Below are positions 3,001-29,858 of a stretch of 31,045 nt of DNA, one piece after another. Numbering within the stretch: position 1 is the first letter of the stretch; the number at the start of each line of letters is the position of its first letter. The notes under the pieces were generated by a model that worked only from the letters and a program-made list of their open reading frames with translations, did not search any database and had not been told where the DNA came from. The translations under genes were made by a program, and so were the position numbers. Source of the stretch: a virus; the IMG/VR virus record IMGVR_UViG_3300037141_000242, positions 1 to 31,045 of that record; one strand, given 5' to 3'.

Positions 3001-3878
3001 GATTTCTTAACATATAAAACATTATGTGTTTTATATTGTACGTTTGTTTCTACTACACCAAGATCATGATCTACTTCATCAATGGCATCTTGTACATTTG
3101 TCGCAAGTAATCCTGATACAATATTATTGTAAGTAACATTTATCGCGGCATCATTATGTGTAATTTCAGTTTGTAATTGTTGTAAAGCACTTTGTACATC
3201 AGGTCCAGTGATACTTGCAAACGGTGTTATTGTTACATTTGCAGCAACTACTGTTTGATACTCAATATTTCCTGATCCAGAATTATAAGTTAATACTTTA
3301 AAATTAGCAATACCTGTGTTATCCACAAGTACTCCTTGAATTTTGGCAACGGTGGGATTAGGATAGGTACCAGATAAATCTCCTCCTGCTGTTCCTGTCG
3401 GAGTAGAAGATACTGAAACATATTCTAAATGCCCAGATACTGAATTGAATACTAAAGCTTTATTATTACCAATGGCGGAGGCATCAACAGGAGTACCTTG
3501 TATTAAATCGGCATTCCAGATTGCAGTACTATTATTAATGGTAATCTCTAATACTTCGTTTCCTCCCGGATTTAATTTAACTAAAGCTCCAGTAGAATCA
3601 ATGGATAATTTATCCATAAGAAAACCTGATGTAGTATCAGTTGCGCTTACTTTAACTTTAATATCTGTGGTAACGCCTGCGAACACTTCTTTTATCCACA
3701 TGGAACCATCCCAGTAGTAAAAAGCAGATTCAGAAGTGATGAATACTTCTATGCCAGGTGTTTTAAACACAATTTCGGCATCCGCATCAGCTAGGGTAGC
3801 AAATTCGTTAAACGGACCTTGAGGAAGAATGAAAGGAACTTTTTGGCTTTCTTCGTTTGTAGGCGTCGGTGCAGGCAT
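1..3878 (-). CDS. Long tail fibre / receptor-binding protein with beta-helix segment (C-terminus beyond window)
   Basis: The frame is open from an ATG at 3878 to the left window edge (about 1292 codons) without a stop, so the C-terminus is missing. The protein begins MPAPTPTNEE. Residues about 160-180 contain SGTYPNPTVAKIQGV, a linker type common in phage tail fibres. Residues about 289-350 (EYSSIASAIAAI, then EVGPGTY and GTTIHGSEIEQT) look like the start of a pectate-lyase-type right-handed beta-helix. The rest is rich in Gly, Ser, Thr and Asn, with later fibre-like repeats such as LYFTNTRAIGAI. The inferred role is host binding at the distal tail, possibly with polysaccharide contact or cleavage; no catalytic site is visible. 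It is the last gene of the leftmost minus-strand run. No Shine-Dalgarno sequence precedes it; instead a long hairpin lies three bases upstream of the start codon. Confidence 0.8.
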   Translation of the reverse strand, partial: MPAPTPTNEESQKVPFILPQGPFNEFATLADADAEIVFKTPGIEVFITSESAFYYWDGSMWIKEVFAGVTTDIKVKVSATDTTSGFLMDKLSIDSTGALVKLNPGGNEVLEITINNSTAIWNADLIQGTPVDASAIGNNKALVFNSVSGHLEYVSVSSTPTGTAGGDLSGTYPNPTVAKIQGVLVDNTGIANFKVLTYNSGSGNIEYQTVVAANVTITPFASITGPDVQSALQQLQTEITHNDAAINVTYNNIVSGLLATNVQDAIDEVDHDLGVVETNVQYKTHNVLYVKKSPGLGEYSSIASAIAAIISPSPTNTWLIEVGPGTYTEPQLTLPVGTTIHGSEIEQTFVQPDAANHHVFVMGNLTGIEFLTIQNAGTGFAGIRVLDVGNYAVTHKTAIVNCDIGMWITADTQDSQFYVEYGEVDGIFTTGVLIDGASAFQNYVELENFYLFPTASPTYGLYIFGPKANAVTYVNDYVGETGAGTAIYLENGADFSTNGIGISDWNYGIRVANVGAPSNINIDSIITNANTTYDLSIEHPTATGSIQGTLDDTKLQLLSVTVGVILLDTDNFDISLTNRINIFYPNGTSTDVSTLITEGSTMGVENGGALTNGGGFTVNIASGFGYFSQFPDNDVIQRFDWGNISITLGTNLDVYLYFNNSTILSTSSSRPNGVFNIILGRVVTNGTTIEYISNTPQVANHTSNLIVNVLKDAVGPIYVFGSSVTENVTPLHLDVGGGQYYYGENIFSPSGGTGITFTTIYGQGSGYLAGQTAVDNTQYDVSGTLTPLTAGYYTKHSVYVIGDAVNEKYYFVYGQTQYSSLLAAQQGNISSIPSYFRGSVTLIAGIIVQQGFANIVQVIDERPVVGFKSSGVNASADHLSLLNLNAGDAGHHQFLMLDGSKTMTGTLNMGTNSISNIVNINGIPVSSFIKIDGNAFGGDEFIGLTDNFAFSIRTNNFDRIAISNSGVITISNLSDGSTRVIGATATGALTASVSTTNLSEGSNLYFTNTRAIGAILIGFVAGPNSVVLATDSILQGTEKLQAQISALVTGVSSVSGTTNRITTSPATGAVIVDIAATYVGQASITTLGTIGTGIWQATIISPTYGGTGINNGIFTITLAGNLTTTGAFNTTLAAQASVVTTLPPVATTLVGQNALGIAQNIPYYADPNQLASTALFQFDAVNQHMFILGNLAGGAVGSSEIELRHTNGTTRGSAKILLETRAISQGNFFIERYNNTYTFQVNQTGTSLPLTTATLQSSFSDNNVTPAPIYIFGNPIVNLSGSTVGNYGSRLD

Positions 3879-3918: not shown

Positions 3919-4479
3919 TTAAAGTGCTTTAAAAACTAATTTCTGAACGCCGGATATTCTAGGATATAGGTAATTACGCAGTAATTCCTTCGGTTGGTTA
4001 ATTAATGTGTAGTGCTCTAATAACTGTGGAGGGTAAATAATTTTCTTCTTTGGACCTTCAACGGGAGTGGGTGTCGGTTGTCCTTTTGCCAATGCAGCTT
4101 TCGTTTCTGCTAAGCTTGGAACATATTTTTGATTTAACTGTTCTGGTCTTGGCGTAGGATCTCCCAAAGCTGGTTTTACTTCGGGTTTTTCGGTTTCTTC
4201 ACTAGGTTGCGTCTTTGCCAGTTCCCCTCTTTTATCCTGTATTACTTCGCCTAATAACGCAAATTTATAATGTAGGTTTAATCCCCATATACGATCTTGT
4301 GTAGCTTCTAAAACATAAATGAGAGGGGAAACGTCATGCACACCTTCGGGAGAACGATATTTGAATTGTAATATCATACCGGGAATAATCTGATTAGCAT
4401 TTACAGGCTTGAAATCAAAAAAACTTCTTAAGTTGTAAATGTTTACTTTAGCGGGATAGCTCCTTTGCGGCTGCATCAT
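3919..4479 (-). CDS. Conserved phage protein of unknown function (186 aa)
   Basis: I cannot name this protein. The N-terminal half is compact and carries IIPGMILQFKYRSPE, then PLIYVLEATQDRIWGLNLHY. As far as I recall, this pattern (PGM.xFxY ... PLIxVL ... GLNLHY) recurs in uncharacterised proteins of large T4-like phages. The middle (about residues 88-145) is low-complexity, rich in Pro, Glu, Lys and Thr, and probably disordered. The C-terminus is basic and hydrophobic. Its start overlaps the end of the PrsW-like gene by 32 bases, so the two are probably translated together. It lies between that protease and the long tail fibre. A virion role is possible but not shown by the sequence. Confidence 0.75.
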   Translation of the reverse strand: MMQPQRSYPAKVNIYNLRSFFDFKPVNANQIIPGMILQFKYRSPEGVHDVSPLIYVLEATQDRIWGLNLHYKFALLGEVIQDKRGELAKTQPSEETEKPEVKPALGDPTPRPEQLNQKYVPSLAETKAALAKGQPTPTPVEGPKKKIIYPPQLLEHYTLINQPKELLRNYLYPRISGVQKLVFKAL

Positions 4480-5525: not shown

Positions 5526-7430
5526 TTAAACTGTTGTGATTTCACAAGCTCCTCCAGAACAGGCAGCTTCAGCTGATAAATCGGTTGAATCGTCTGTTTC
5601 TATAACTTTGCTAAAGTCAATATGTTTTAGTTTAGCATATAGTTTCTCAAATTTTTCTTCTGTGATTGATTCGAACGGTGCTTGTACATAAGTGTGATCA
5701 GCGTGTGGTAAAAACGATAATGCTGTATAATCATTCTTATGTTCCCAACACCAATTACCTACTTCTTCCCATTCATTACTCTTTATTGTGATGGTAGCAG
5801 ATACGTTATTTTTATTTCTGCCACCCCTGTGTCCTGGTTTAATCCAATCTTTATGGAACCTTTGTACTCTTTGCAATAGCTCCATAGCTGTTTCTGTACG
5901 AAGAATTGATCCTGGTACTGATCTCTGAGGAATTGATATAACCGCTTGAATATGTGGTTTGAAATAATCGTCTTCTAACAATTCTGGTGCATGAATAGAG
6001 AGATAAGTATATAGGGCTTCATTCTTTCCTACACGCATTCTTCTGATGTAAAACTCATCGTGCCATGCGTGGATACCTGAAGATGTGCCCAATACGCATG
6101 AAGCTGTTCCTTCCGGTTTAATAACCGTTGTTCTTGCAGCTTTGTTAATTCCAATAATCTTAGCTACTCTTTCATTTTCTGCCTTTACAATATCAGCAGC
6201 TTCTTTCAAATTCAGCCCTAATACAGCTTTAGAAGCAATACCTGTCATGGATACACCAATTAAAGCCTCTTTTTCAGTTGTGCGTTTCCAAGATTCTCTC
6301 AAGTAATGAAAATCTGTATAACTTGCTTGTAATGTCCCAATAAACGCTGCAGCTTTAACTCTTTCATTCAAATCATCTTGTGATTCAACATCAGAAGCAT
6401 TAATTGTAGTTAGGTTACAGAATTGGTTTGATCGTAAACTTACCTCTGCACAAGGGTTTAAACCCCAATTTTCATCATTAGTAAAATAGAATCCCGGTTC
6501 TCCCGATCCTGATAATTCAATCTTCTTCCATAAAGCTTTAAATTCTTCTTCAGAAACTCTATCTCTTAATATTGTAGCAGAGTTGTTTGATCTTCCTCTC
6601 TGTTCGTTTAATTCCCACCAGTTTCCAAATTTGCAAGATAACATATCTTCATCATCGAAACTGAATAAAGCAATCATAGCTGCTCTACGAATTCCCCCGG
6701 CCAATACCGCATTTGCTTCATAGCAAAGAATATCATGGCATTCTAAAGGAGTTAACCTTTCACCATTATTCTTATTCTCTAGGATTTGCTCAATTTTAAA
6801 TAAACATTCCTTTAATGGGCCGGCTCCAGGTGCTTTCCCTCCAGAAGTGATTAATTTTGCGCCTTTAGGTCTAATATCAGAAAAATCAAATATAGGTTTA
6901 GAACTAAGACCAAAGTAAGATTTCATCAAAGCTTTAACAGCATCTGCCCAACCTTCAATTGAATCGTTTACTAAGAATCTACGTGTTTTATATGACTTGC
7001 AAATAACAGGAAGTTTTTCTACATGATCAAATTGAACACTATAACCTACTCCTGTGCCAGATAGCAGAAGAAACATTACTTCTGAGAACGCTCTGTAATC
7101 ATCAATATGTAAAAAAGAACAATTGAATAATCTAACTGGATTAATTTCTACTGGTTTCCCTGCGAATTGCATAGAGCGCATGGAAGGTAATACTTGTTTA
7201 TTGTAAACGAATTTGTAAGCGTCTCTGATTTCTCCTTCTAATTTTGGAAATTTCTTAATGTGCATAGTCATATTGCGAGTAACAATCTCATCCCATACTT
7301 CTCTTCTCTCCAGGTGAGGAAGGTATTTCGCATATTTTGAAAATACTGTAATTGAAGATAAAATTTCTTTACTGGAATCTAATATTTTGGGGGAAGAAAT
7401 AGTCCCGACGCTATGTTTGGCATCACTCAT
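5526..7430 (-). CDS. nrdJ: Adenosylcobalamin-dependent (class II) ribonucleoside-triphosphate reductase
   Basis: This enzyme reduces ribonucleoside triphosphates to deoxy forms using a B12-derived radical, supplying dNTPs for phage DNA synthesis without oxygen or a separate radical subunit. It resembles the monomeric RTPR of Lactobacillus leichmannii. Key residues can be read: the redox pair C104 (FNCSF) and C338 (QFCNL), the thiyl-radical C327 within NPCAE with N325 and E329, and a C-terminal re-reducing pair in CSGGAC near the end. The C327-C338 spacing of eleven equals that of C408-C419 in the Lactobacillus enzyme. PEGTASCVLGTSSGIH near residue 440 is also typical. At 634 residues it is about 100 shorter than that enzyme, so some insert or regulatory part is reduced. 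It follows the helicase after a 168-base gap with two hairpins and ends at a terminator. Confidence 0.95.
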   Translation of the reverse strand: MSDAKHSVGTISSPKILDSSKEILSSITVFSKYAKYLPHLERREVWDEIVTRNMTMHIKKFPKLEGEIRDAYKFVYNKQVLPSMRSMQFAGKPVEINPVRLFNCSFLHIDDYRAFSEVMFLLLSGTGVGYSVQFDHVEKLPVICKSYKTRRFLVNDSIEGWADAVKALMKSYFGLSSKPIFDFSDIRPKGAKLITSGGKAPGAGPLKECLFKIEQILENKNNGERLTPLECHDILCYEANAVLAGGIRRAAMIALFSFDDEDMLSCKFGNWWELNEQRGRSNNSATILRDRVSEEEFKALWKKIELSGSGEPGFYFTNDENWGLNPCAEVSLRSNQFCNLTTINASDVESQDDLNERVKAAAFIGTLQASYTDFHYLRESWKRTTEKEALIGVSMTGIASKAVLGLNLKEAADIVKAENERVAKIIGINKAARTTVIKPEGTASCVLGTSSGIHAWHDEFYIRRMRVGKNEALYTYLSIHAPELLEDDYFKPHIQAVISIPQRSVPGSILRTETAMELLQRVQRFHKDWIKPGHRGGRNKNNVSATITIKSNEWEEVGNWCWEHKNDYTALSFLPHADHTYVQAPFESITEEKFEKLYAKLKHIDFSKVIETDDSTDLSAEAACSGGACEITTV

Positions 7431-7598: not shown

Positions 7599-10040
7599 TT
7601 AAGTTCCGGATTTTTTTCTGTACGCATCTAATCTGGCCTTCATGGTATCTAGACCTTTTGCTACTCCTTCGCGTTTGCTTTCATCTAATAAAAGAGAACG
7701 ATTCACTGATTCCAATTCCTCAAATGTAACTCGACCTGGATTATAACGCAATTTAAGCATCAATCCTTTCGGACCAAGTCTATTCTTTAATAATTGCACA
7801 TAACATTCTCCAGCATCTTGCATTGGAAGTGTTTGTGTAAATAATAACATCCAATCGCATACTTGATAAACTTCAATTGCTTTACCAATGTTTTGTTCGT
7901 CTGCCATTGCTACGTTAAAACCTCCTCTATTTGATTGGAAAGCTGCGTAGACAGGTAAACGTAACTCTTTGGCCATATCCCTCAGTTCTTCCGCAAGATA
8001 TTCGAATTTATCATTAGCATTTGCGAAGCGCTCATGCCTAGGTGGTTTAACTTGATTCAACCCGTCAACAATAATCATATCCGGAAAGAATCCTTCTGAT
8101 TTCTTTTCTTCTACAATTGCTTTGATTGCATCTACTCTTGCATGAATTGATTTCATTTCAATGAATTTCAATTCGCCTGCAAAAGCTTTTATTTTAGATT
8201 CAATCAAAGTAGGGTGATCGCTTAAGGATTCTTGGTTTACATTTACAATACCCGCAAGGATACGCTGCATCAATTGTATATTGTCCGTTTCTAAACTGAA
8301 GAATAAAACCTTCTTGCCTAGTTGTGCTGCATGTTTAGCAGTTGCAACAAGATAGTTAGTATTATGTACAACAGTAAAATCTTTCAACAAAAACATTTTA
8401 TCTGGATCATTATCACTTATTGTAAAACCATAATAATTACCAAGACCTTTAGATACAACGCTTATAGTTAGACAATCATGTCTTTTATTAGTTTTACGCT
8501 TTATAGCTTGTTTTCTTGCTATCTTAGTTGGGATTAAATGTGTATCACCAGAAATTAATAGCTTAATTGCTTTACCTTTATAATCATAAGATTTTAAAGA
8601 GGTTGTAACTTCTCGTTCACGAACTTTAAATCCTAAACTTCTTGCAAGAAAAGCTATGTCAGCGGCTAAAGTATAGTTTATTTGCGAAATCTCAAAATTA
8701 GTTTTTGTTTGTTTATTCAAATAACCATCTGAATCTAGTAACCCTGCCAATAATTCTAATCTTGCTTGTCTATCATTATTCAAATAAGCAAAAGGAATAT
8801 GTTTATTATTTAATAATCCATAAATTCTTAAATTATCTAATAAGACATTTGATAATCCTTGTTTTGATACTATTGAATGATAGTCTTCATAGTTCTTCTT
8901 TACATCATAGTTTTTTGACGATAAAGTTAAAAGTAATTCCTCAGCATATTCCTTCAAATAACTAACTACTTCCTCATCTTTATTAGTGATCGATTGATTA
9001 GCTGAAGATCCATCACCCAGCCATAGGCCTAGGTAATATGGATCAATTAAAACAGTTTGGCTGCTGAGGTTATCCACTCCAACTTTTATTCCTTTATGGT
9101 TTTTTCTCCAAGTAGCTGATTTCTTTATATAATCTTTCACCTCTATTTTTACAAGAGACTCAGACATTTTAGAATAATTTTTTAAATAATGTTTTGTCGG
9201 TTTTAAAACTAATATGTGCGATTCATTAACTGTGTATGATGTTCCATCATCTTGTTTAATTTCATACATTTCCTCTTGCCCTTGCGCTAAAGAAGTAATT
9301 GTACGAGGTTTTCCATCCCATCCCATGACCTTATCGTTAGTTTTAATATCTTCGACCTTTCGTATAGAAAGATCCTGCATTAAAACTTCAGTTCCTTTAG
9401 CAAAGCATTTACCAAAATTTGATTGTGCCACAATAATACACAAGTCTCCTGCTCCGGGTCCTCCTTTAGAAACCATATTCATAGATGGCAAAGGAGTTGG
9501 TACAGGTGATCTAGAAGCAGAAGACAATGCTTTTGTATAGTCTTTCTTTAAATCGACTTCACTTGATGCATTATTAAGTGGCTTGTATTTTTGAAACGCC
9601 ACTTCTCTTGCTTTATCGAATTTGCCATTCATGATTGCTGCTCTTTCTTCTTCTAATGAAGATAAAGCATGCCGCGTGAAACAAAACTTTGCACATTCTG
9701 CTTCAACGAATTCTTTTCTTGTCAAATCAACATCCTTAATACTATTCAAAGCCAACAAATAAAGCTTTGTTCCAGTTCCCACTTGTGTTTCAATGATTGT
9801 TTTTAACGTTTCAAAGTCGGGCTGACAATGATAGTTATCAATGAAAGTAAGGATTGTCTCACAAATAAATTGATTGTACTTGTTATCAAAGTATTCGGAC
9901 TTGATGATTAGTTTTATTTTATTTGCAAATGCCTTATCTTGGATAAGGAGAGATAAAGTAGCAAGTTGGAACTTTTGTCCAAACTTGCCGAAGTCTTTAT
10001 CCATTTGTGTATCTGTAGTTTCTGCGAACATTACGTCCAT
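7599..10040 (-). CDS. Replicative DNA helicase (DnaB / T4 gp41 type) interrupted by an intein
   Basis: The host protein is a hexameric 5'-3' replicative helicase of the RecA-fold DnaB/gp41 family. Residues 1-211 hold the N-terminal domain and the start of the ATPase core, ending SNFGK. Residues 212-560 are an intein. Residues 561-813 resume with TNYLVATAKHAA, so splicing restores GKT of the Walker A motif. Walker B is seen at MIIVDGLNQV (about 655-664), followed by FQSNRGG, a DnaB-type sensor region. The spliced helicase would have 464 residues, close to the size of T4 gp41. Without splicing the ATP site is destroyed, so activity depends on the intein. Its ATG shares one base with the stop codon of the exonuclease gene (TAATG), implying coupled translation. 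Confidence 0.93.
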   Translation of the reverse strand: MDVMFAETTDTQMDKDFGKFGQKFQLATLSLLIQDKAFANKIKLIIKSEYFDNKYNQFICETILTFIDNYHCQPDFETLKTIIETQVGTGTKLYLLALNSIKDVDLTRKEFVEAECAKFCFTRHALSSLEEERAAIMNGKFDKAREVAFQKYKPLNNASSEVDLKKDYTKALSSASRSPVPTPLPSMNMVSKGGPGAGDLCIIVAQSNFGKCFAKGTEVLMQDLSIRKVEDIKTNDKVMGWDGKPRTITSLAQGQEEMYEIKQDDGTSYTVNESHILVLKPTKHYLKNYSKMSESLVKIEVKDYIKKSATWRKNHKGIKVGVDNLSSQTVLIDPYYLGLWLGDGSSANQSITNKDEEVVSYLKEYAEELLLTLSSKNYDVKKNYEDYHSIVSKQGLSNVLLDNLRIYGLLNNKHIPFAYLNNDRQARLELLAGLLDSDGYLNKQTKTNFEISQINYTLAADIAFLARSLGFKVREREVTTSLKSYDYKGKAIKLLISGDTHLIPTKIARKQAIKRKTNKRHDCLTISVVSKGLGNYYGFTISDNDPDKMFLLKDFTVVHNTNYLVATAKHAAQLGKKVLFFSLETDNIQLMQRILAGIVNVNQESLSDHPTLIESKIKAFAGELKFIEMKSIHARVDAIKAIVEEKKSEGFFPDMIIVDGLNQVKPPRHERFANANDKFEYLAEELRDMAKELRLPVYAAFQSNRGGFNVAMADEQNIGKAIEVYQVCDWMLLFTQTLPMQDAGECYVQLLKNRLGPKGLMLKLRYNPGRVTFEELESVNRSLLLDESKREGVAKGLDTMKARLDAYRKKSGT
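8361..9407 (-). mobile_element. Intein with LAGLIDADG homing endonuclease, in helicase Walker A
   Basis: The 349-residue intein starts at C212 (CFAKGTEVLM, block A) and ends at VVHN560, followed by Thr. The TxxH-like block B is NESHILVL. Two endonuclease motifs are visible: YLGLWLGDGS (about 336-345) and LLAGLLDSDGYL (about 430-441). A terminal His-Asn and a +1 Thr fit a standard Cys1/Asn splicing mechanism. Both the splicing and endonuclease parts look intact, so it is probably a mobile full-length intein. Inteins at the P-loop of phage and DnaB helicases are known; this site between Lys and Thr is one of the most conserved positions available. Confidence 0.93.
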
Positions 10041-11023
10041 TATGAATTTAATTTAATGTCTTGTTTCATAAAATTAAATGGTCTTATCCACAAATCAAAG
10101 TTTTTTATGTGAGATTCTATGTGTTGTTTGATACAATACATTTTTAATCCCACTTTTGAGAAGCCTTTTGCACTTGAATCTTCTAATTGAGAATTCAATA
10201 TTTCAATTCCTCTTTGATTCATGCATGTATAATCGAGTTTCATCAACCCATACATCAAGAAGGCTTGCGCTTTATTTTCCTTTAATTTCTTTCCTAGTTT
10301 AGAATCATCTTCCAGCTTATCAATCTCCGCCCAAAATTCCTCAAATGAAGCGAATGGTTGCGTTTTAAGCTGGGGAATCTTCTCTAACAGAGTATCCTGC
10401 CCTATTCCCTTAATCCCTATTAATTTGTCAGAAGAATCTCCGACGATACAGCGCATATAAACAAAGTTGCTAGGAATAACTTCATGCTTGGCTAATACTA
10501 ACGCTTCATTGTAAAGCGTTTTCTTTTGAGGAGCCCAAACGAATGTATCTTTATTGATTAATTGATAGTAGTCTTTATCATTTGTATTTATGATGCTCAT
10601 GTATTCTGGATTCTTATTTACCAAATATGCAATCACATCATCTGCTTCGTAATAAGGGACAACAACTAGATCAACTGGTAAGAACTTTAAGAAATCAATT
10701 AACATCCTCAATTGTTCTTGCTCATTATCTACTTGTACTTTATCACCGTCTCCAAAATCCATCACAGAGAAACGTTTTTTCTTTCCACGTTTTCCTTTAT
10801 AGTCTTTGAAAATACTTCTTCTTCGTTGCCCTGCATTCGGTCCATCGAATACAACAACAACTTTTTGTGGATTAAACTTCGCCACTAGTCTTTGTAACTG
10901 AGTCACAAACCCTATAAAGCCACCAATAGGTTCTCCATTCGAATCACTCGCTTTAAATATGGCCAACATTTGGTACCAAAGGTTGAATCCGTCCACGTAT
11001 AATATTTTAGATTTTGTTTCCAT
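10040..11023 (-). CDS. 5'-3' exonuclease / flap endonuclease (T4 RNase H-like)
   Basis: The enzyme should remove RNA primers and 5' flaps during lagging-strand synthesis. It has the PIN/FEN metal-site acids in order: D11 (YVDGFNL), D60 (VVFDGPN, followed by GQRRR), E126-D128-D129 (YEADD), D149 and D151 (TNDKD), and D196/D199 (GDSSD). The helix-three-turn-helix DNA-binding motif is GIKGIGQDTLLEK (203-215). Its length of 327 is close to the 305 of T4 RNase H. The start region is unusual: METKSKILYVDGFNL is a re-coded version of a second, orphaned N-terminus found at 11230-11292, and the two are separated by a homing endonuclease remnant that overlaps this gene's first 17 bases. The stop codon overlaps the helicase start (TAATG). 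Confidence 0.92.
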   Translation of the reverse strand: METKSKILYVDGFNLWYQMLAIFKASDSNGEPIGGFIGFVTQLQRLVAKFNPQKVVVVFDGPNAGQRRRSIFKDYKGKRGKKKRFSVMDFGDGDKVQVDNEQEQLRMLIDFLKFLPVDLVVVPYYEADDVIAYLVNKNPEYMSIINTNDKDYYQLINKDTFVWAPQKKTLYNEALVLAKHEVIPSNFVYMRCIVGDSSDKLIGIKGIGQDTLLEKIPQLKTQPFASFEEFWAEIDKLEDDSKLGKKLKENKAQAFLMYGLMKLDYTCMNQRGIEILNSQLEDSSAKGFSKVGLKMYCIKQHIESHIKNFDLWIRPFNFMKQDIKLNS

Positions 11024-11252
11024 ATAAATGTTGTGTTAAAATCTCTTTAATGTTTTTTAATTCTGTATATGGAATTCTTATTAAAGTAATATTTTTATTT
11101 TTATTATTACATTGTGTGCAGCCATACTTCCAATAAATATGGGCTTGGTAAGATTGATAAAAAGACCCATGCTTTTTACAAACAATCTCGACCTTCGCCC
11201 ATACATTGGTGTACTTCACTTTTGCATAATCATAGATTAAAGCCATCGACAT
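11007..11252 (-). CDS. Internally deleted homing endonuclease remnant (81 aa)
   Basis: Residues 7-49 (YDYAKVKYTNVWAKVEIVCKK, then HGSF and GCTQC) match the zinc-binding DNA-recognition module seen in phage endonucleases of the EDxHD/Vsr-like group. The next part, ITLIRIPYTELKNIKEIL, resembles the final strand and helix of such enzymes. The catalytic core that should lie between them is absent, so the protein is probably inactive as a nuclease. Its first six residues (MSMALI) are out-of-frame exonuclease sequence and its last ones overlap the exonuclease start. It therefore lies exactly between an orphaned old 5' end of the exonuclease gene and the new one. The two-part reading is from pattern memory, without a search. 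Confidence 0.7.
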   Translation of the reverse strand: MSMALIYDYAKVKYTNVWAKVEIVCKKHGSFYQSYQAHIYWKYGCTQCNNKNKNITLIRIPYTELKNIKEILTQHLYGNKI

Positions 11253-11292
11253 AGAGAACCTTTGATTTAGCTGTTACGCTTTCTGGTGTCAT
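11230..11292 (-). pseudogene. Orphaned original 5' end of the exonuclease gene
   Basis: The frame reads MTPESVTAKSKVLYVDGFNL and then TGA. Residues 8-20 align with residues 3-15 of the working exonuclease (TKSKILYVDGFNL) with eleven of thirteen identical. Of the eleven codons for identical residues, ten differ in sequence (for example TAT/TAC, GTC/GTG, GAT/GAC, GGC/GGA, TTT/TTC, AAT/AAC). Its ATG lies one base after the stop of the UvsX C half, the position expected for the native downstream gene. I infer that it is the native start, cut off by insertion of an endonuclease element that brought its own re-coded 5' end. Confidence 0.85.
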
Positions 11293-11293
11293 G

Positions 11294-12616
11294 TTAGTCT
11301 TTCATTTCTTCAGGAACTTCTTCAACTTCCTCCTCTTCGAAAGGTTCAACAGGAACTGCTGCATCGGTTGGAATAGGTGATCTAACCAACTTTTCACAAA
11401 TTGTCGAACGGACTTCTTCATGCAATGCAACATCGGAAAGCATTTCTTTCCATCCATCTCTTTTGAATTTACCCAATTCAGGATGGTTTAAAAATTGGTA
11501 TTCGAAACTAGACACAGCTTTTACAATGTTGTACTTTATACTGTAATCAAGCCAAGCATCTTCTTCAATAATACCTTGGGAGAAAACAATTCTGAATTCG
11601 GCTTCTCTTCTTGGAGGTCCGACCTTGTTTTTATCAGTACGAGCGGTAACATCGTATCCAATTATGATTTCATCTCCTTTTTGTTTCTTTGGTTTTTCTG
11701 GCTTATCTCCAACCTTACCTTGATTCTTCCAACCTTCGACTTTTAGATTCCAAGCATTCAATTGATTTCTGTGCTCGGCTTCTGCGAATGGATCAAGTTC
11801 AACCACTGGAGTTTTACCTTGTAACTTAATACGTACTGTCGCTGCAAACTTTACTGAGTTACCACCTGGAGTCGTATTATGATTTATTTGTCCATTTGCA
11901 ATATAACACTCAGTTCCTCCTACACTAATATCAACGACTTGCATAGGTGAATCTATTTTTACAATATTATCTCCTTTGGCAAAGCGATCTGCAGAAGTTT
12001 CCCATTGTTCATCTTCTTTGCTCCAAGTTCTATGAACAGAAGTTGTTTTTAAAATTTCTGAGCTTGAAGTTATTTCATAGTGTTCACTTACACTTTCTTT
12101 TACAACGAAAGCATTTAAAGGTTTATAAACAACTTCTTTTTTAACTACATCGTATGATTTTATTAACAACCCTAAGTCAGTCAAATCTTTAACTTGGATT
12201 GTATCTAAATCAATATTAAGCTTTTTTGCTAAATCCGCAAAAGAGATTTTCATGTCTACCATCTCGGATTTCTCATCTTTTTTTGAGACATAAGAATCTT
12301 TGCTTATTCTCACAAAAGGTTCTTTAAAGCCCTCGCTTTCATAGTACATACCTTTACCTATTGCAGAAATTGCAACTTCTTCCTTGAATGTAGATATCTT
12401 GCTCAGCGCAACTACTTGTGTCTCAAAAGGTTCTACTATTTTTATTTTTTTTCCTTTGAATAAATCTATTTCTTGTATTGCTTCCACTCCAATTTTTTTT
12501 AAATCTTCACTCGAGAATACTACATCGGCAAGTTCGCCTTCAGATGTATTAAAAGTTATTCCTTTTCTTGAACTTAAAGCCTTATGCTGGTCGCAAAATT
12601 CTAATAATGTTTTCAT
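11294..12616 (-). CDS. uvsX: Split UvsX, C-terminal half, preceded by intein C fragment
   Basis: Residues 1-247 are the intein C fragment and 248-440 the recombinase C half. The extein starts TTPGGNSVKFAATVRIKL, matching the RecA loop L2 and following strand (E. coli TTTGGNALKFYASVR). It ends in a very acidic tail (PFEEEEVEEVPEEMKD), as in UvsX and RecA. The N half, encoded at 13524-14276, ends GDPT before its own intein piece, so trans-splicing would yield GDPT-TTPGG with no residue lost. The joined recombinase would have about 419 residues; T4 UvsX has 391. UvsX forms filaments on single-stranded DNA for strand exchange and replication restart. Neither half alone has both the ATP site and the C domain. 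The start ATG lies one base past the endonuclease gene stop. Confidence 0.92.
   Translation of the reverse strand: MKTLLEFCDQHKALSSRKGITFNTSEGELADVVFSSEDLKKIGVEAIQEIDLFKGKKIKIVEPFETQVVALSKISTFKEEVAISAIGKGMYYESEGFKEPFVRISKDSYVSKKDEKSEMVDMKISFADLAKKLNIDLDTIQVKDLTDLGLLIKSYDVVKKEVVYKPLNAFVVKESVSEHYEITSSSEILKTTSVHRTWSKEDEQWETSADRFAKGDNIVKIDSPMQVVDISVGGTECYIANGQINHNTTPGGNSVKFAATVRIKLQGKTPVVELDPFAEAEHRNQLNAWNLKVEGWKNQGKVGDKPEKPKKQKGDEIIIGYDVTARTDKNKVGPPRREAEFRIVFSQGIIEEDAWLDYSIKYNIVKAVSSFEYQFLNHPELGKFKRDGWKEMLSDVALHEEVRSTICEKLVRSPIPTDAAVPVEPFEEEEVEEVPEEMKD
11876..12616 (-). mobile_element. Intein C fragment (247 aa) with an N-terminal extension
   Basis: Splicing motifs: block B TSVH (T192, H195), block F/G CYIANGQINHN ending at H246-N247, and +1 Thr. 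Residues about 145-190 (GLLIKSYDVVKKEVVYKPL through HYEITSSSEIL) match the strands before block B. No endonuclease domain is present, as expected if the nuclease is the separate gene upstream. About 120 residues at the N-terminus are extra compared with what is needed to complement a 24-residue N fragment. They include VEPFETQV, which resembles VDPFTTEV of the N fragment but lacks the leading Cys. An internal Met at 122 could be another start. Confidence 0.85.
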
Positions 12617-12617
12617 T

Positions 12618-13499
12618 TTATTTTTCTTTTAAATTTGTTAAAAATTTTATTATGTTGTGTGTGTTTAATCTAACGTAAGACTCCCAATAAACTATATACT
12701 TCATCCCTTGCTCAGTTATCTGTTTGTTTCTTAGAGAGTCAACTTCCCAAATTTCTTTTGCTTTTATTCCCCTTCTATCATCTTCTGATTTGAAAAACTT
12801 AGGATTACAGTGCCAATAGTCACCAAACAATTCAATTGCTAGGTTGAATTTCGGAAGGTAGAAATCAATAAAATAAGTTTTGCCATTTGTTTCTACGACC
12901 TTATCAATTTCAAATTCTATGTTTAGTAAAGTTAGGATTCCAGCAAAAGTAAACTCTAAATCATTTACTTTCTTTCCCTTCAGCAAAAATAATTCTTTTG
13001 TATTTTTTACGCTATGTTCCTTTTGCCACTCTACCAAATTAAACCTATTAGGTCCAGAAGATAGCTTCTCTCGGTGTGCCTTACTTCTATCAGTATTCCA
13101 ATAGTTATTTAACCAATTTTCCCTTCTTCGAATTTTCAACGCTGGATCGCTCCATGCTTTTTTTCTACTTTCTGACACTTTAGCTATATAATCAGGATTA
13201 CTCCAAGTTTTGCCTTTAACGCTAGTTTTCAGCTTTTCGTTATACAAAACTAAAGATGCTTTAATTTGTTCTTCATCTTCTTCTTTAATTTTGTTTTTTA
13301 AGAGAAAATTCAAAGCATTTGTATAGCCCCAAGATTCTTTTCTAACCTTATAAATTAACTTACCAATTTCGCCAAAGTGTTTTTCATAATCTTCTTGTGT
13401 TTTTAGATTAACACTCTTAGGTTTTTTTACTCTGATTTTAACCTTGCTATAAGTAGAGTCAGTAGTTAATTCAAAATATGTTTCAAAAATTGTTTTCAT
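12618..13499 (-). CDS. Vsr-like (EDxHD) homing endonuclease between the split intein genes
   Basis: A free-standing 293-residue nuclease gene. The C-terminal domain (about 180-293) has DFYLPKFNLAIELFGDYWH (D212, E223, D227, H230), then W251-x-x-D254-x-x-R257 and GMKYIVYWES, the layout of very-short-patch-repair-type nucleases and of the homing endonuclease family found between split-intein genes in environmental phages (Dassa and co-workers, from memory). The middle (NPDYIAKVSESRKKAWSDP) resembles nuclease-associated DNA-binding modules, and the region around residues 120-160 is basic. It lies 24 bases after the UvsX N half and 1 base before the C half. It probably cuts intein-free uvsX alleles, spreading the whole fractured arrangement. 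Confidence 0.88.
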   Translation of the reverse strand: MKTIFETYFELTTDSTYSKVKIRVKKPKSVNLKTQEDYEKHFGEIGKLIYKVRKESWGYTNALNFLLKNKIKEEDEEQIKASLVLYNEKLKTSVKGKTWSNPDYIAKVSESRKKAWSDPALKIRRRENWLNNYWNTDRSKAHREKLSSGPNRFNLVEWQKEHSVKNTKELFLLKGKKVNDLEFTFAGILTLLNIEFEIDKVVETNGKTYFIDFYLPKFNLAIELFGDYWHCNPKFFKSEDDRRGIKAKEIWEVDSLRNKQITEQGMKYIVYWESYVRLNTHNIIKFLTNLKEK

Positions 13500-13523
13500 T
13501 CACCAGGAGTTTACTTTAAAATA

Positions 13524-14276
13524 TTACTCTTGGAAGAATTTTTGATAAATATCCTTAGGAATCTTTAATTCTACTTCTGTTGTGAAAGGATCAACGCATG
13601 TAGGATCCCCAAACATTACACCTGGTTTGTCTCTCAATTGATTTACAATATAAAGTACTGCGTTTGCTTTTCTTAAAAACGGAGAAATCTTTCTTAATCC
13701 TTTTCCGATTTGTTTTGCTTTCGCCAAAGCAATATTCATGTTCGCTTCAAAGCCTGCTTCAACTTCAGCGTCTGTTGACATTTGTGCTAAAGAATCAAGG
13801 CAAATAAAGATTGGCTTGTTCTTGTAAGTCTTACTGTTTATAATGGTTGTAAGATTTTGTTCCATCGCTGCAAAGATTTCTTCTACTGAAGTTAATCCCG
13901 AAATTATAGTGCGGCTTAAATCTACACCACATGCTTGCATCATATCTCTTGATCCAGCTTGCTCCACATCAAAATAAATTGGGATTCCTCCCATCTTTTG
14001 ACAATTTGCCATCGCTTGAAATGCAAGAGTTGATTTTCCAATTGCTTCTTGCCCATATACTTCAACAACTCTTCCACAAGGCCAACCTCCAGTAGGCTGA
14101 TTAGAAATGATTGTATCAAGAATGCAAGAGCCTGTTGGAATCCAGATTTTAACATCAGAGAACATATCGTCTCCTGTCACAGCTGCTCCAGGAAATAAAG
14201 CATTCTGTTCGCCAATTAACTGTCCAAAGATTTCATCTACTTTTTGGACAGTCTTTTTGCCTGGTTTTTCTTTCAT
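13524..14276 (-). CDS. uvsX: Split UvsX, N-terminal half, ending in a 24-residue intein N fragment
   Basis: Residues 1-226 are the N part of a RecA/UvsX recombinase: Walker A GQEAIGKST (75-83), a RecA-type GRVVEVYG lead-in, FDVEQAG (E105 near the catalytic Glu position), Walker B PIFICLDSLAQ (D161), and NQLRDKPGVMFGDP (212-225), which is loop L2 entry. The sequence then leaves RecA homology at C227 and ends after CVDPFTTEVELKIPKD and eight more residues. The missing C half starts at residue 248 of the protein encoded at 11294-12616. The gene follows the gp32-like gene after a hairpin-containing spacer and has no Shine-Dalgarno sequence. It is inferred to be active only after trans-splicing. 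Confidence 0.93.
   Translation of the reverse strand: MKEKPGKKTVQKVDEIFGQLIGEQNALFPGAAVTGDDMFSDVKIWIPTGSCILDTIISNQPTGGWPCGRVVEVYGQEAIGKSTLAFQAMANCQKMGGIPIYFDVEQAGSRDMMQACGVDLSRTIISGLTSVEEIFAAMEQNLTTIINSKTYKNKPIFICLDSLAQMSTDAEVEAGFEANMNIALAKAKQIGKGLRKISPFLRKANAVLYIVNQLRDKPGVMFGDPTCVDPFTTEVELKIPKDIYQKFFQE
13527..13598 (-). mobile_element. Very short intein N fragment (24 aa)
   Basis: It starts at C227 of the UvsX N half and runs CVDPFTTEVELKIPK to the stop codon. It supplies the nucleophilic Cys1 and little more than block A. Most natural split inteins break near the endonuclease site and have N fragments near 100 residues. Atypically split inteins with N pieces of about this size are known from environmental phage genes, as I recall including terminase and uvsX. 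Confidence 0.85.
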
Positions 14277-28132: not shown

Positions 28133-29265
28133 TATATGTTAATCTTTCTTCTCACTTCAATGTTGTTTTGTAATGAGATTTGGTAAGCTTGTATTACTGT
28201 CCCGTTTATATTTCCTTGACTATCAATTGTGATACCGTTATCATCATAAATTGAAATTGTACTTTGTACTGTATCTCTTGCTGCATCATTCTTTAAGAAT
28301 TGTACTGCTGCAACTAAGTCTTGATCTTTATTAGTGTAATCTACTTCAACGTAAATTGGATCAAAGTAGGTTTCTCTTGGAAATACTCTTATGATATCGC
28401 CTGGAGCAATTGCTTGAGTTGCAGGATCATATCCTACATTATCTGGAGTCAATACAAACAATGCTTGTCCGCTATTCCCATCTAATCCCAAAGAGTTCTC
28501 AACTGATATCTTTGTTTGTTTCTTAACTGTCAATGACGCATTCCAAATTTCAACAACTGAGCCGTGTAATCTACCGGCTTGCTTTGGGTTATTTTCAAAT
28601 AACCAAGGGGTTCCCAAGAATGAAGGATTACCTACAACAACTGCTGAGCGTCTTCCCTCAGCATCACTGGGATTGACGAATTGCCAAGCAACTTGTTTCC
28701 TTCTCAATACGTTTACTACTGTAGCTTGTATAAACTTTGGAGAAATCTTTACATAGTAAGTTCCATACTTTTTTAATACAGGGGTTTGTGTTGTATCATT
28801 GAATACATTTGCAGGTATTCTTACTACTTGTAAACCATTGAATATACTTACTACTCTTGGATTGGTATCCGCGACGGGATATAAAGGAACTGCTAAACTT
28901 TCTATGCCGGCAGATTGTAAAGTGGTGATTGTATTTGTTTGGATATCCATCATTTCAAAATCGGCAAAAGCATCTTGAACAATGTAAGGCACGTTATAGG
29001 CAACAGTACCAATATAGTCTGTAGCAGAGTTTGCAGCATTCACAGGAATATCTTTCACATCAGAAGCTAAAGCTTGACGATGAAGAATTTCTCCAAACGT
29101 ATCAGCTGTTGATGTTTCTGGAATATTATTCACTCCGTCATAGTTATAGTCTGTAGAAGCCAACTGCTGGCTTTCTTCTTTAGCAATATATCCTGCTTGT
29201 GGCTTTGTTGGAGTCACTGGAATGTATTGATCTACCGTATTATCTTTTAAAGTATACTGTATCAT
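28132..29265 (-). CDS. Baseplate/tail structural protein (377 aa)
   Basis: The N-terminus (MIQYTLKDNTVDQYIPVTPTKPQ) is extended, followed by a mixed region (DTFGEILHRQALASDVKDIP, DYIGTVAYNVPYIVQDAFAD) and a beta-rich C part (YGTYYVKISPKFIQATVVNV, SPGDIIRVFPRETYFDPIYVEV). The low Cys content and many hydrophobic beta strands fit a virion protein. I cannot name a T4 counterpart. Its ATG shares one base with the stop of the GIY-YIG endonuclease gene, so that insertion has left the structural operon's translation coupling intact. Confidence 0.7.
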   Translation of the reverse strand: MIQYTLKDNTVDQYIPVTPTKPQAGYIAKEESQQLASTDYNYDGVNNIPETSTADTFGEILHRQALASDVKDIPVNAANSATDYIGTVAYNVPYIVQDAFADFEMMDIQTNTITTLQSAGIESLAVPLYPVADTNPRVVSIFNGLQVVRIPANVFNDTTQTPVLKKYGTYYVKISPKFIQATVVNVLRRKQVAWQFVNPSDAEGRRSAVVVGNPSFLGTPWLFENNPKQAGRLHGSVVEIWNASLTVKKQTKISVENSLGLDGNSGQALFVLTPDNVGYDPATQAIAPGDIIRVFPRETYFDPIYVEVDYTNKDQDLVAAVQFLKNDAARDTVQSTISIYDDNGITIDSQGNINGTVIQAYQISLQNNIEVRRKINI

Positions 29266-29858
29266 TATAAGCTATTGTTTAATTTCTTTAAACCTTTATT
29301 CCAAGGTGTTTTCCCTTTTCTTTTTTCACTCATCTTTTTTCTTACTGCAGGATCTTTAGTTGGATTATTAGTTATGTTTCTTAAAGTCACGTCTGGCCTC
29401 TTTTTACCTAACCAGTATCTACTTGGTCCTTTCTTTGTCTTTTTTATTTTAAGTTTTCTTGTTTTATCAGCTATTTTCTTTACTCTAACATCCGTTTCTT
29501 GTGTTAACCCTTTATTCCATGGAATATTGCCTTTTAATGTATTAGATATTTTCTTTTTTGTTTCTTCTGTAATATTCGCATTTAAACGTGGAAATCCCAT
29601 ACCACCTTTATCTAAATTATAACCTATTTTGGGGTTTCTAGCATCTAATTGTGCTATCCAATAAATTTCTCTAACGTCTAGCTCTTCTAGCGAAGTGCAA
29701 ATTTCTAAAGTTTCTCTTTTAAAATTATGCCTTCCATACTTTTTTAATGCTCGTTTAAGCCACTTACCTGAACCTAAATAATACTTGTTATTATCCTTAG
29801 TATGTTTTCCAACATAAATTTTACCAGTAATTAAATTTACAGTTTTATATATTATCAT
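29265..29858 (-). CDS. GIY-YIG homing endonuclease with NUMOD3 repeats (197 aa)
   Basis: A free-standing endonuclease of the I-TevI/Seg type. The N-terminal nuclease domain starts MIIYKTVNLITGKIYVGKHT (the GIY and YIG strands appear as IYK and YVG), followed by YYLGSGKWLKRALKKYG with the catalytic Arg region, and EIYWIAQL with the catalytic Glu. It continues to IGYNLDKGGMG. Its C part carries NUMOD3 DNA-binding motifs: TEETKKKISNTLKGNIPWNKG and VRKKMSEKRKGKTPWNKG. The protein is very basic. It is inserted between two structural genes, five bases after one and overlapping the next by one base, and presumably cuts related phages lacking it nearby. Confidence 0.93.
   Translation of the reverse strand: MIIYKTVNLITGKIYVGKHTKDNNKYYLGSGKWLKRALKKYGRHNFKRETLEICTSLEELDVREIYWIAQLDARNPKIGYNLDKGGMGFPRLNANITEETKKKISNTLKGNIPWNKGLTQETDVRVKKIADKTRKLKIKKTKKGPSRYWLGKKRPDVTLRNITNNPTKDPAVRKKMSEKRKGKTPWNKGLKKLNNSL

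Follow-up and report, generated by a model that had tools for sequence, protein, structure and literature searches.

The window analyzed here (the whole stretch of DNA, a single metagenomic contig from the IMG/VR virus collection, 31,045 bases) carries a replication block on its minus strand, composed of an ssDNA-binding-like gene, uvsX in two pieces, a 5'-3' exonuclease, dnaB, and ribonucleotide reductase (Table 1). Distant phages have the same order (ssb-uvsX-exo-dnaB) without interruptions, and most of them start the exonuclease gene at the uvsX stop or close to it. The corresponding position in the window is occupied by an orphan, an exonuclease 5' end with its start codon at 11290–11292 and its frame closed by a TGA at 11230–11232. 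The working exonuclease starts downstream with METKSKILYVDGFNLWYQ, and a remnant of a homing endonuclease (HE) lies between the two. A previous sequence-only reading of this DNA had described the locus as an orphan 5' end, an HE remnant, and a working exonuclease with a new start, a description borne out by the coordinates, the reading frames, and the Pfam and phrog matches.

Table 1. Features of the exonuclease locus in the window and of the TGA-containing exonuclease starts in related contigs (window positions unless a contig is named)
Feature	Position	Strand	Remark
uvsX, two pieces	13524–14276 and 11294–12616	minus	
HE gene between the uvsX pieces	12618–13499	minus	
uvsX 3' half with C-intein	11294–12616	minus	upstream of orphan
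uvsX stop	11294–11296	minus	
Orphaned exonuclease 5' end, MTPESVTAKSKVLYVDGFNL then TGA	11230–11292	minus	one base past uvsX stop
HE remnant ORF, 81 aa	11007–11252	minus	catalytic core deleted, N-terminus truncated
DUF723-type repeat (remnant aa 7–48)	11109–11234	minus	Pfam and tblastn
C-terminal tail of Vsr-like/EDxHD-type HE (remnant aa 51–78)	11019–11102	minus	
17-nt overlap	11007–11023	minus	remnant stop TAA inside new exonuclease start
Replacement exonuclease 5' end (METKSKILYVDGFNL)	10979–11023	minus	10/11 shared-residue codons unlike those of orphan
5'-3' exonuclease (flap endonuclease family), begins METKSKILYVDGFNLWYQM...	10040–11023	minus	intact
dnaB with intein	7599–10040	minus	
Ribonucleotide reductase	5526–7430	minus	
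CTT TGA CTT/CTC AAT ATG starts	L235/L072 (3929–4060 of L072), L234/L044 (1–60), L236 (5228–5340), L238, L240 (2949–3060), L241		

The exonuclease matches Pfam 5_3_exonuc_N (E = 1e-27) and keeps the conserved acidic columns, including D11, E126, D128, and D129, with the Asp of the VDG.N motif. The orphan and the new start align over 14 codons, and 10 of the 11 codons for identical residues differ, a recount that agrees with the number reported before. Under independence, the codon usage of the phage predicts 5.8 differences, and the observed number exceeds this saturation expectation (P(≥10) = 0.007, from one post hoc test).

The frame of the remnant opens within the old 5' end and closes 17 nt into the new one, running from 11252 to 11007 as originally described. 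Residues 12–48 match Pfam DUF723 (E = 2e-4, just above gathering), residues 7–59 match the endonuclease family phrog_681 (5e-7), and the DUF723-type repeat aligns with phage endonucleases by tblastn (best 46%, E = 1e-7). The C-terminal 31 aa, with the tail ITLIRIPYTELKNIKEIL, match 29 phage records at 47–70% identity, the annotated ones mostly named as 'HNH endonuclease' or hypothetical; the E-values are weak (best 0.03) because the tail is short. With the repeat and a LIRIPY-type tail both present, the remnant fits a DUF723 plus Vsr-like (EDxHD/PD-(D/E)XK-type) phage HE. Alignment with full-length members places the catalytic core (DFYL...IEFDGIQHF) outside of what is retained, and with the core and the N-terminus gone the remnant is an HE relic and not an enzyme. 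The left joint of the remnant has a TATG common to both sides and may be the endpoint of a later deletion, so it need not mark the original nuclease cut.

Inteins and a further endonuclease occur elsewhere in the window. Across 11294–14276, the N-part of uvsX ends with ~24 intein-like residues (CVDPF...FFQE) and the C-part opens with ~250 (...INHNT), an atypically split intein with an HE gene interposed. An intein-like sequence in the uvsX of another contig, L240 (1125–1946, ending NHNT/TSGG), apparently sits at the same insertion point, and the relatives L043 and L236 do not have this sequence. The dnaB intein contains a LAGLIDADG homing domain (Hom_end_hint, 3e-27), and a free-standing GIY-YIG/NUMOD3 endonuclease is found amid structural genes at 29265–29858 (NUMOD3 3e-11, GIY-YIG weak).

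No close or uninterrupted relative of the window phage was found when IMG/VR was scanned, by protein and by pattern, for the exonuclease, uvsX, and ribonucleotide reductase, nor did GTDB genomes or cultured phages provide a close one; the nearest exonuclease in these searches was at about 37%. A peptide search identified no donor for the new start. The case for the window is built on its anatomy (the orphan, the HE remnant, the intact gene with a new start, and the codon differences, all directly observed) and on analogy with relatives, where alone the uninterrupted native allele, replacement of the start by itself, and an HE-plus-start unit moving between phages are seen.

A search for duplicate VDGxN motifs among about 145 exonuclease loci identified contig L027, in which an orphan (MKERVVIIDGLNFF, then stop) is followed by a complete HE of 252 aa (GIY-YIG, Pfam 8e-13; NUMOD3, 1e-21) and an exonuclease whose new start reads MKRDTERIMIIDGLNMFLRNLIVNP. 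The same cassette occurs in L183 and L184, from other metagenomes, and the lineage has uninterrupted relatives of ~93% identity (L031, L180, L181, L182, and L216). The DNA of L027 and L031 is 92.5% identical up to the DGLN motif of the orphan and 93.5% identical from just past the new start, which is itself diverged over about 57 nt (41/57 nt identical), with amino acid changes in addition to differences in 7 of the 14 shared codons. The uninterrupted gene of L031 agrees with the orphan side rather than with the new start, as had been predicted for a native gene. Between L185 (the L027 contig) and L184, the cassettes are 99.9% identical and the exonuclease bodies 94.6%, as would be expected under recent homing. 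At the motif, all five codons of the L027 orphan (ATC GAC GGA CTT AAC, 3127–3144) differ from those of L031 (ATT GAT GGG CTC AAT, 4016–4033), while the preceding codons are identical. Three alleles are thereby present at the presumed target, and the uninterrupted survivors may be cleavage-resistant. Separately, L027 has a second, HNH-like ORF (1306–2202, within 1192–2230) beside a tRNA-Leu, for which there was no convincing Pfam hit; behind it, the leader and the beginning of the next gene occur a second time (CACACAAGG(A/G)AAAGAC...ATGAGA), possibly another duplicated gene start.

The second lineage became apparent from L072 and L043, which are 96.4% identical on either side of an exonuclease start that has itself been replaced in L072 (7/10 codons differ). 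A scan for the motif block of the new start in L072 returned six contigs. L236, L240, and L241 carry a Vsr-like HE of the 300-aa class with the new start (phrog_3339 homing endonuclease for L240, 7e-11), the L238 contig ends inside the HE, and in L235/L072 the new start persists but the HE is reduced to its final codons (GKIKFIKNKINEYKI), which is also the state of decay in the window. The HE stop in L236, L240, and L241 lies 17 nt into the new exonuclease start, which is also the offset in the window; the right ends of the window and L240 cassettes share 15 of 21 positions (permutation P 0.02–0.06), an overlap similarity that is not significant and for which no homology is claimed. The stranded resident starts read MIKNYKDML/SL-stop (L236), MIKNYKEML/SL-stop (L240), and MIRTKSN/SLLVFLV-stop (L241), and the orphan start of L240, L236, and L072 matches L043 and L033. 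The HE and start of L240 and L236 are 97.4% identical over 1,078 bp, compared to 86.5% for the uvsX flank and 83.5% for the exonuclease body, which identifies the HE gene plus the exonuclease start as the moving unit. With direct comparators in two independent lineages, there is strong support for the core of the earlier proposal, in which an incoming HE element supplied a new 5' end for the gene and the original was left stranded.

The new start in this second lineage ends ...GTC GAC GGC CTT TGA CTT AAT ATG, with CTC as the second CTT in L241. The in-frame TGA is kept in six contigs among recipients that are 20–30% different, the exonuclease body past it is intact (315–317 codons, dN clearly below dS), and directly before the CTT lies the end of an inverted repeat specific to the cassette (GCCGTCGAC/GTCGACGGC). 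The hairpin has fold z-scores of −4.4 and −4.0, a weak indicator by itself, since −3.4 is obtained for the native start of L043 as well. The conserved CTT-TGA-CTT/CTC is a candidate for a natural stop-hop: a ribosome that took off at CTT, skipped the TGA, and landed on the Leu codon behind it would produce exactly the native protein. No natural in-frame stop-hop was known to a 2016 review (PMC5009743). The main alternative is reinitiation at the next ATG, which would produce the body without the catalytic Asp. No suppressor tRNA that would account for the TGA was found on the contigs of this lineage, and an RF2-like +1 shift at the TGA was rejected, as it would take the ribosome out of the exonuclease frame.

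Based on the anatomy of the window and the parallels in relatives, it is very likely that the exonuclease gene of the window phage was invaded by an HE cassette that replaced the 5' end of the gene, left the original one stranded, and subsequently decayed. Such a cassette would comprise an HE gene and, behind it, a substitute exonuclease 5' end, with the exonuclease gene as its integration site. Cleavage by the HE presumably took place in the codons of the catalytic-Asp motif (YVDGFN), and donor-templated repair would have transferred the HE gene together with the exonuclease start belonging to the donor, fusing that start in frame to the resident body to restore the protein and leaving the resident start as an orphan behind uvsX. 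As the donor start encodes the same motif in different codons, the new gene should escape recutting. The HE would then have lost its N-terminus and catalytic core, presumably at a later time, while the substitute start would be retained because the gene now depends on it.

The codon differences can also be read in another way. The same insertion may have occurred with the differences reflecting neutral divergence of a foreign donor allele, immunity coming from the interruption itself, an alternative to which we assign somewhat less than an even chance. The new starts of the relatives resemble diverged alleles of foreign origin, for which deliberate recoding is not needed: between L027 and L031 the amino acids changed along with half of the shared codons, the L043 and L072 starts differ to the extent given above, and the new start of the second lineage has an exact 19-nt motif block in common with the native phages L237 and L239. 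Neutral divergence is less readily reconciled with the excess of codon differences in the window, nor with the five consecutive motif codons that separate the L027 orphan from the uninterrupted allele and hint at selection on the target. From its codon differences, the new start of the window would be predicted to escape cutting.

Other explanations would alter the insertion itself. The new start could be the resident one, with a foreign orphan and HE fragment pasted into the gap between uvsX and the exonuclease by illegitimate recombination. The codons of the orphan are indeed less typical for the phage (log-likelihood −18.4) than those of the new start (−14.4; exonuclease body −13.2 ± 2.9), and on account of this slightly worse fit both starts could be foreign, but 14 codons hold little information, and in both testable relatives it is the orphan side, and not the new start, that matches the native allele, making this arrangement improbable. 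Two similar starts on one strand would also result if the exonuclease start had been partially duplicated and the copies had then diverged, with the HE remnant between them by coincidence. Such a duplication would not account for a remnant that overlaps both copies, for saturated codons with conserved residues, or for the order orphan, HE, and new start recurring in two further lineages whose HEs belong to different families, and is rejected as very improbable. An assembly or chimera artefact would be a concern for one metagenomic contig alone, yet the exonuclease body is open and conserved and analogous structures occur in three plus six contigs from different metagenomes; this explanation is likewise rejected, with hardly any probability left to it. 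Entry of a cassette carrying its own exonuclease start continues to be the preferred reading for the window.

A broader and more speculative possibility, for which the balance is presently unfavorable, is that these loci represent an unrecognised class of phage homing cassette (HE plus substitute start) that repeatedly, and each time independently, colonises the catalytic-Asp codons of the replication exonuclease. Under this proposal, the window and L027 would restore the protein by direct in-frame fusion, and L236, L238, L240, and L241, along with two others, would hop CUU-UGA-CUU/CUC just past the cassette-specific hairpin. The preferred cassette reading would by itself extend gene-end-replacing homing to phages and to 5' gene ends; a single active-site motif is affected in three independent lineages. 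It would also explain why the starts of phage replication genes are patchy and mosaic. Further, the relatives offer naturally paired alleles (native, orphan, and replacement) with which target-site immunity through codon change is directly testable.

Searches of the open-license literature found no case of HE-driven gene-end replacement in a phage. Yeast WHO elements home into FBA1, swap its 3' end for an enzyme-resistant allele, and leave FBA1 fragments (PMC7282813). The window displays the same gene-end-replacing trait, an HE gene adjoining a duplicated and diverged end of its host gene. As in the WHO elements of Torulaspora and Lachancea (PMC7282813), an HE gene is combined with a gene-end fragment unlike the target allele, one end of the host gene is replaced by homing, fragments of the old end lie beside the HE gene, and old HEs and fragments decay. 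The phage cases differ in replacing the 5' end of an exonuclease rather than the 3' end of FBA1 and in their nucleases, as WHO proteins are related to HO/VDE, the window remnant is DUF723/Vsr-like, and relatives also use GIY-YIG. Resistance of the replaced end was demonstrated experimentally for WHO (PMC7282813), whereas for the phage cassettes it is predicted from codon differences. Membership in the WHO family by descent was ruled out, with a remnant that is DUF723/phrog_681/559-like and a 5'-3' exonuclease as the host gene.

The suggested likeness to fungal mitochondrial atp6 also holds. The mORFs of fungal mitochondria bring in a foreign C-terminus, and the native one remains downstream (PMC3630166); those of Allomyces atp6 and Glomus atp6, atp9, cox2, and nad3 resemble the phage cassettes in the HE-borne foreign end, the native end left in place, and DNA that diverged while the protein was conserved (e.g., 64% DNA and 91% protein for atp6; PMC3630166). 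The mORFs replace C-terminal ends in mitochondria, while the window type is N-terminal and in a phage. Among phages, T4 mobA/gene 60 is similar in having an HE in a replication-associated gene and a proposed protective change of that gene (PMC5009743, PMC2988022); a protective role against the neighbouring HE has been proposed for the 50-nt bypassed insert of gene 60 (PMC5009743). In T4 the gene is split and contains a non-coding bypassed insert, whereas the phage cassettes replace a gene end and keep one ORF, though those of the L236 lineage, with CTT-TGA-CTT, are closer to the gene 60 bypass. SegF, SegG, and MobE are likewise phage HEs, of the free-standing kind, beside a reportedly targeted replication gene, with co-inheritance of flanking gene sequence, but are intergenic and, as described, have no stranded duplicate gene end (PMC2988022). 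By analogy, the window and its relatives may be regarded as a phage counterpart of WHO elements and mORFs, a mirror image at the 5' end that involves unrelated HE families.
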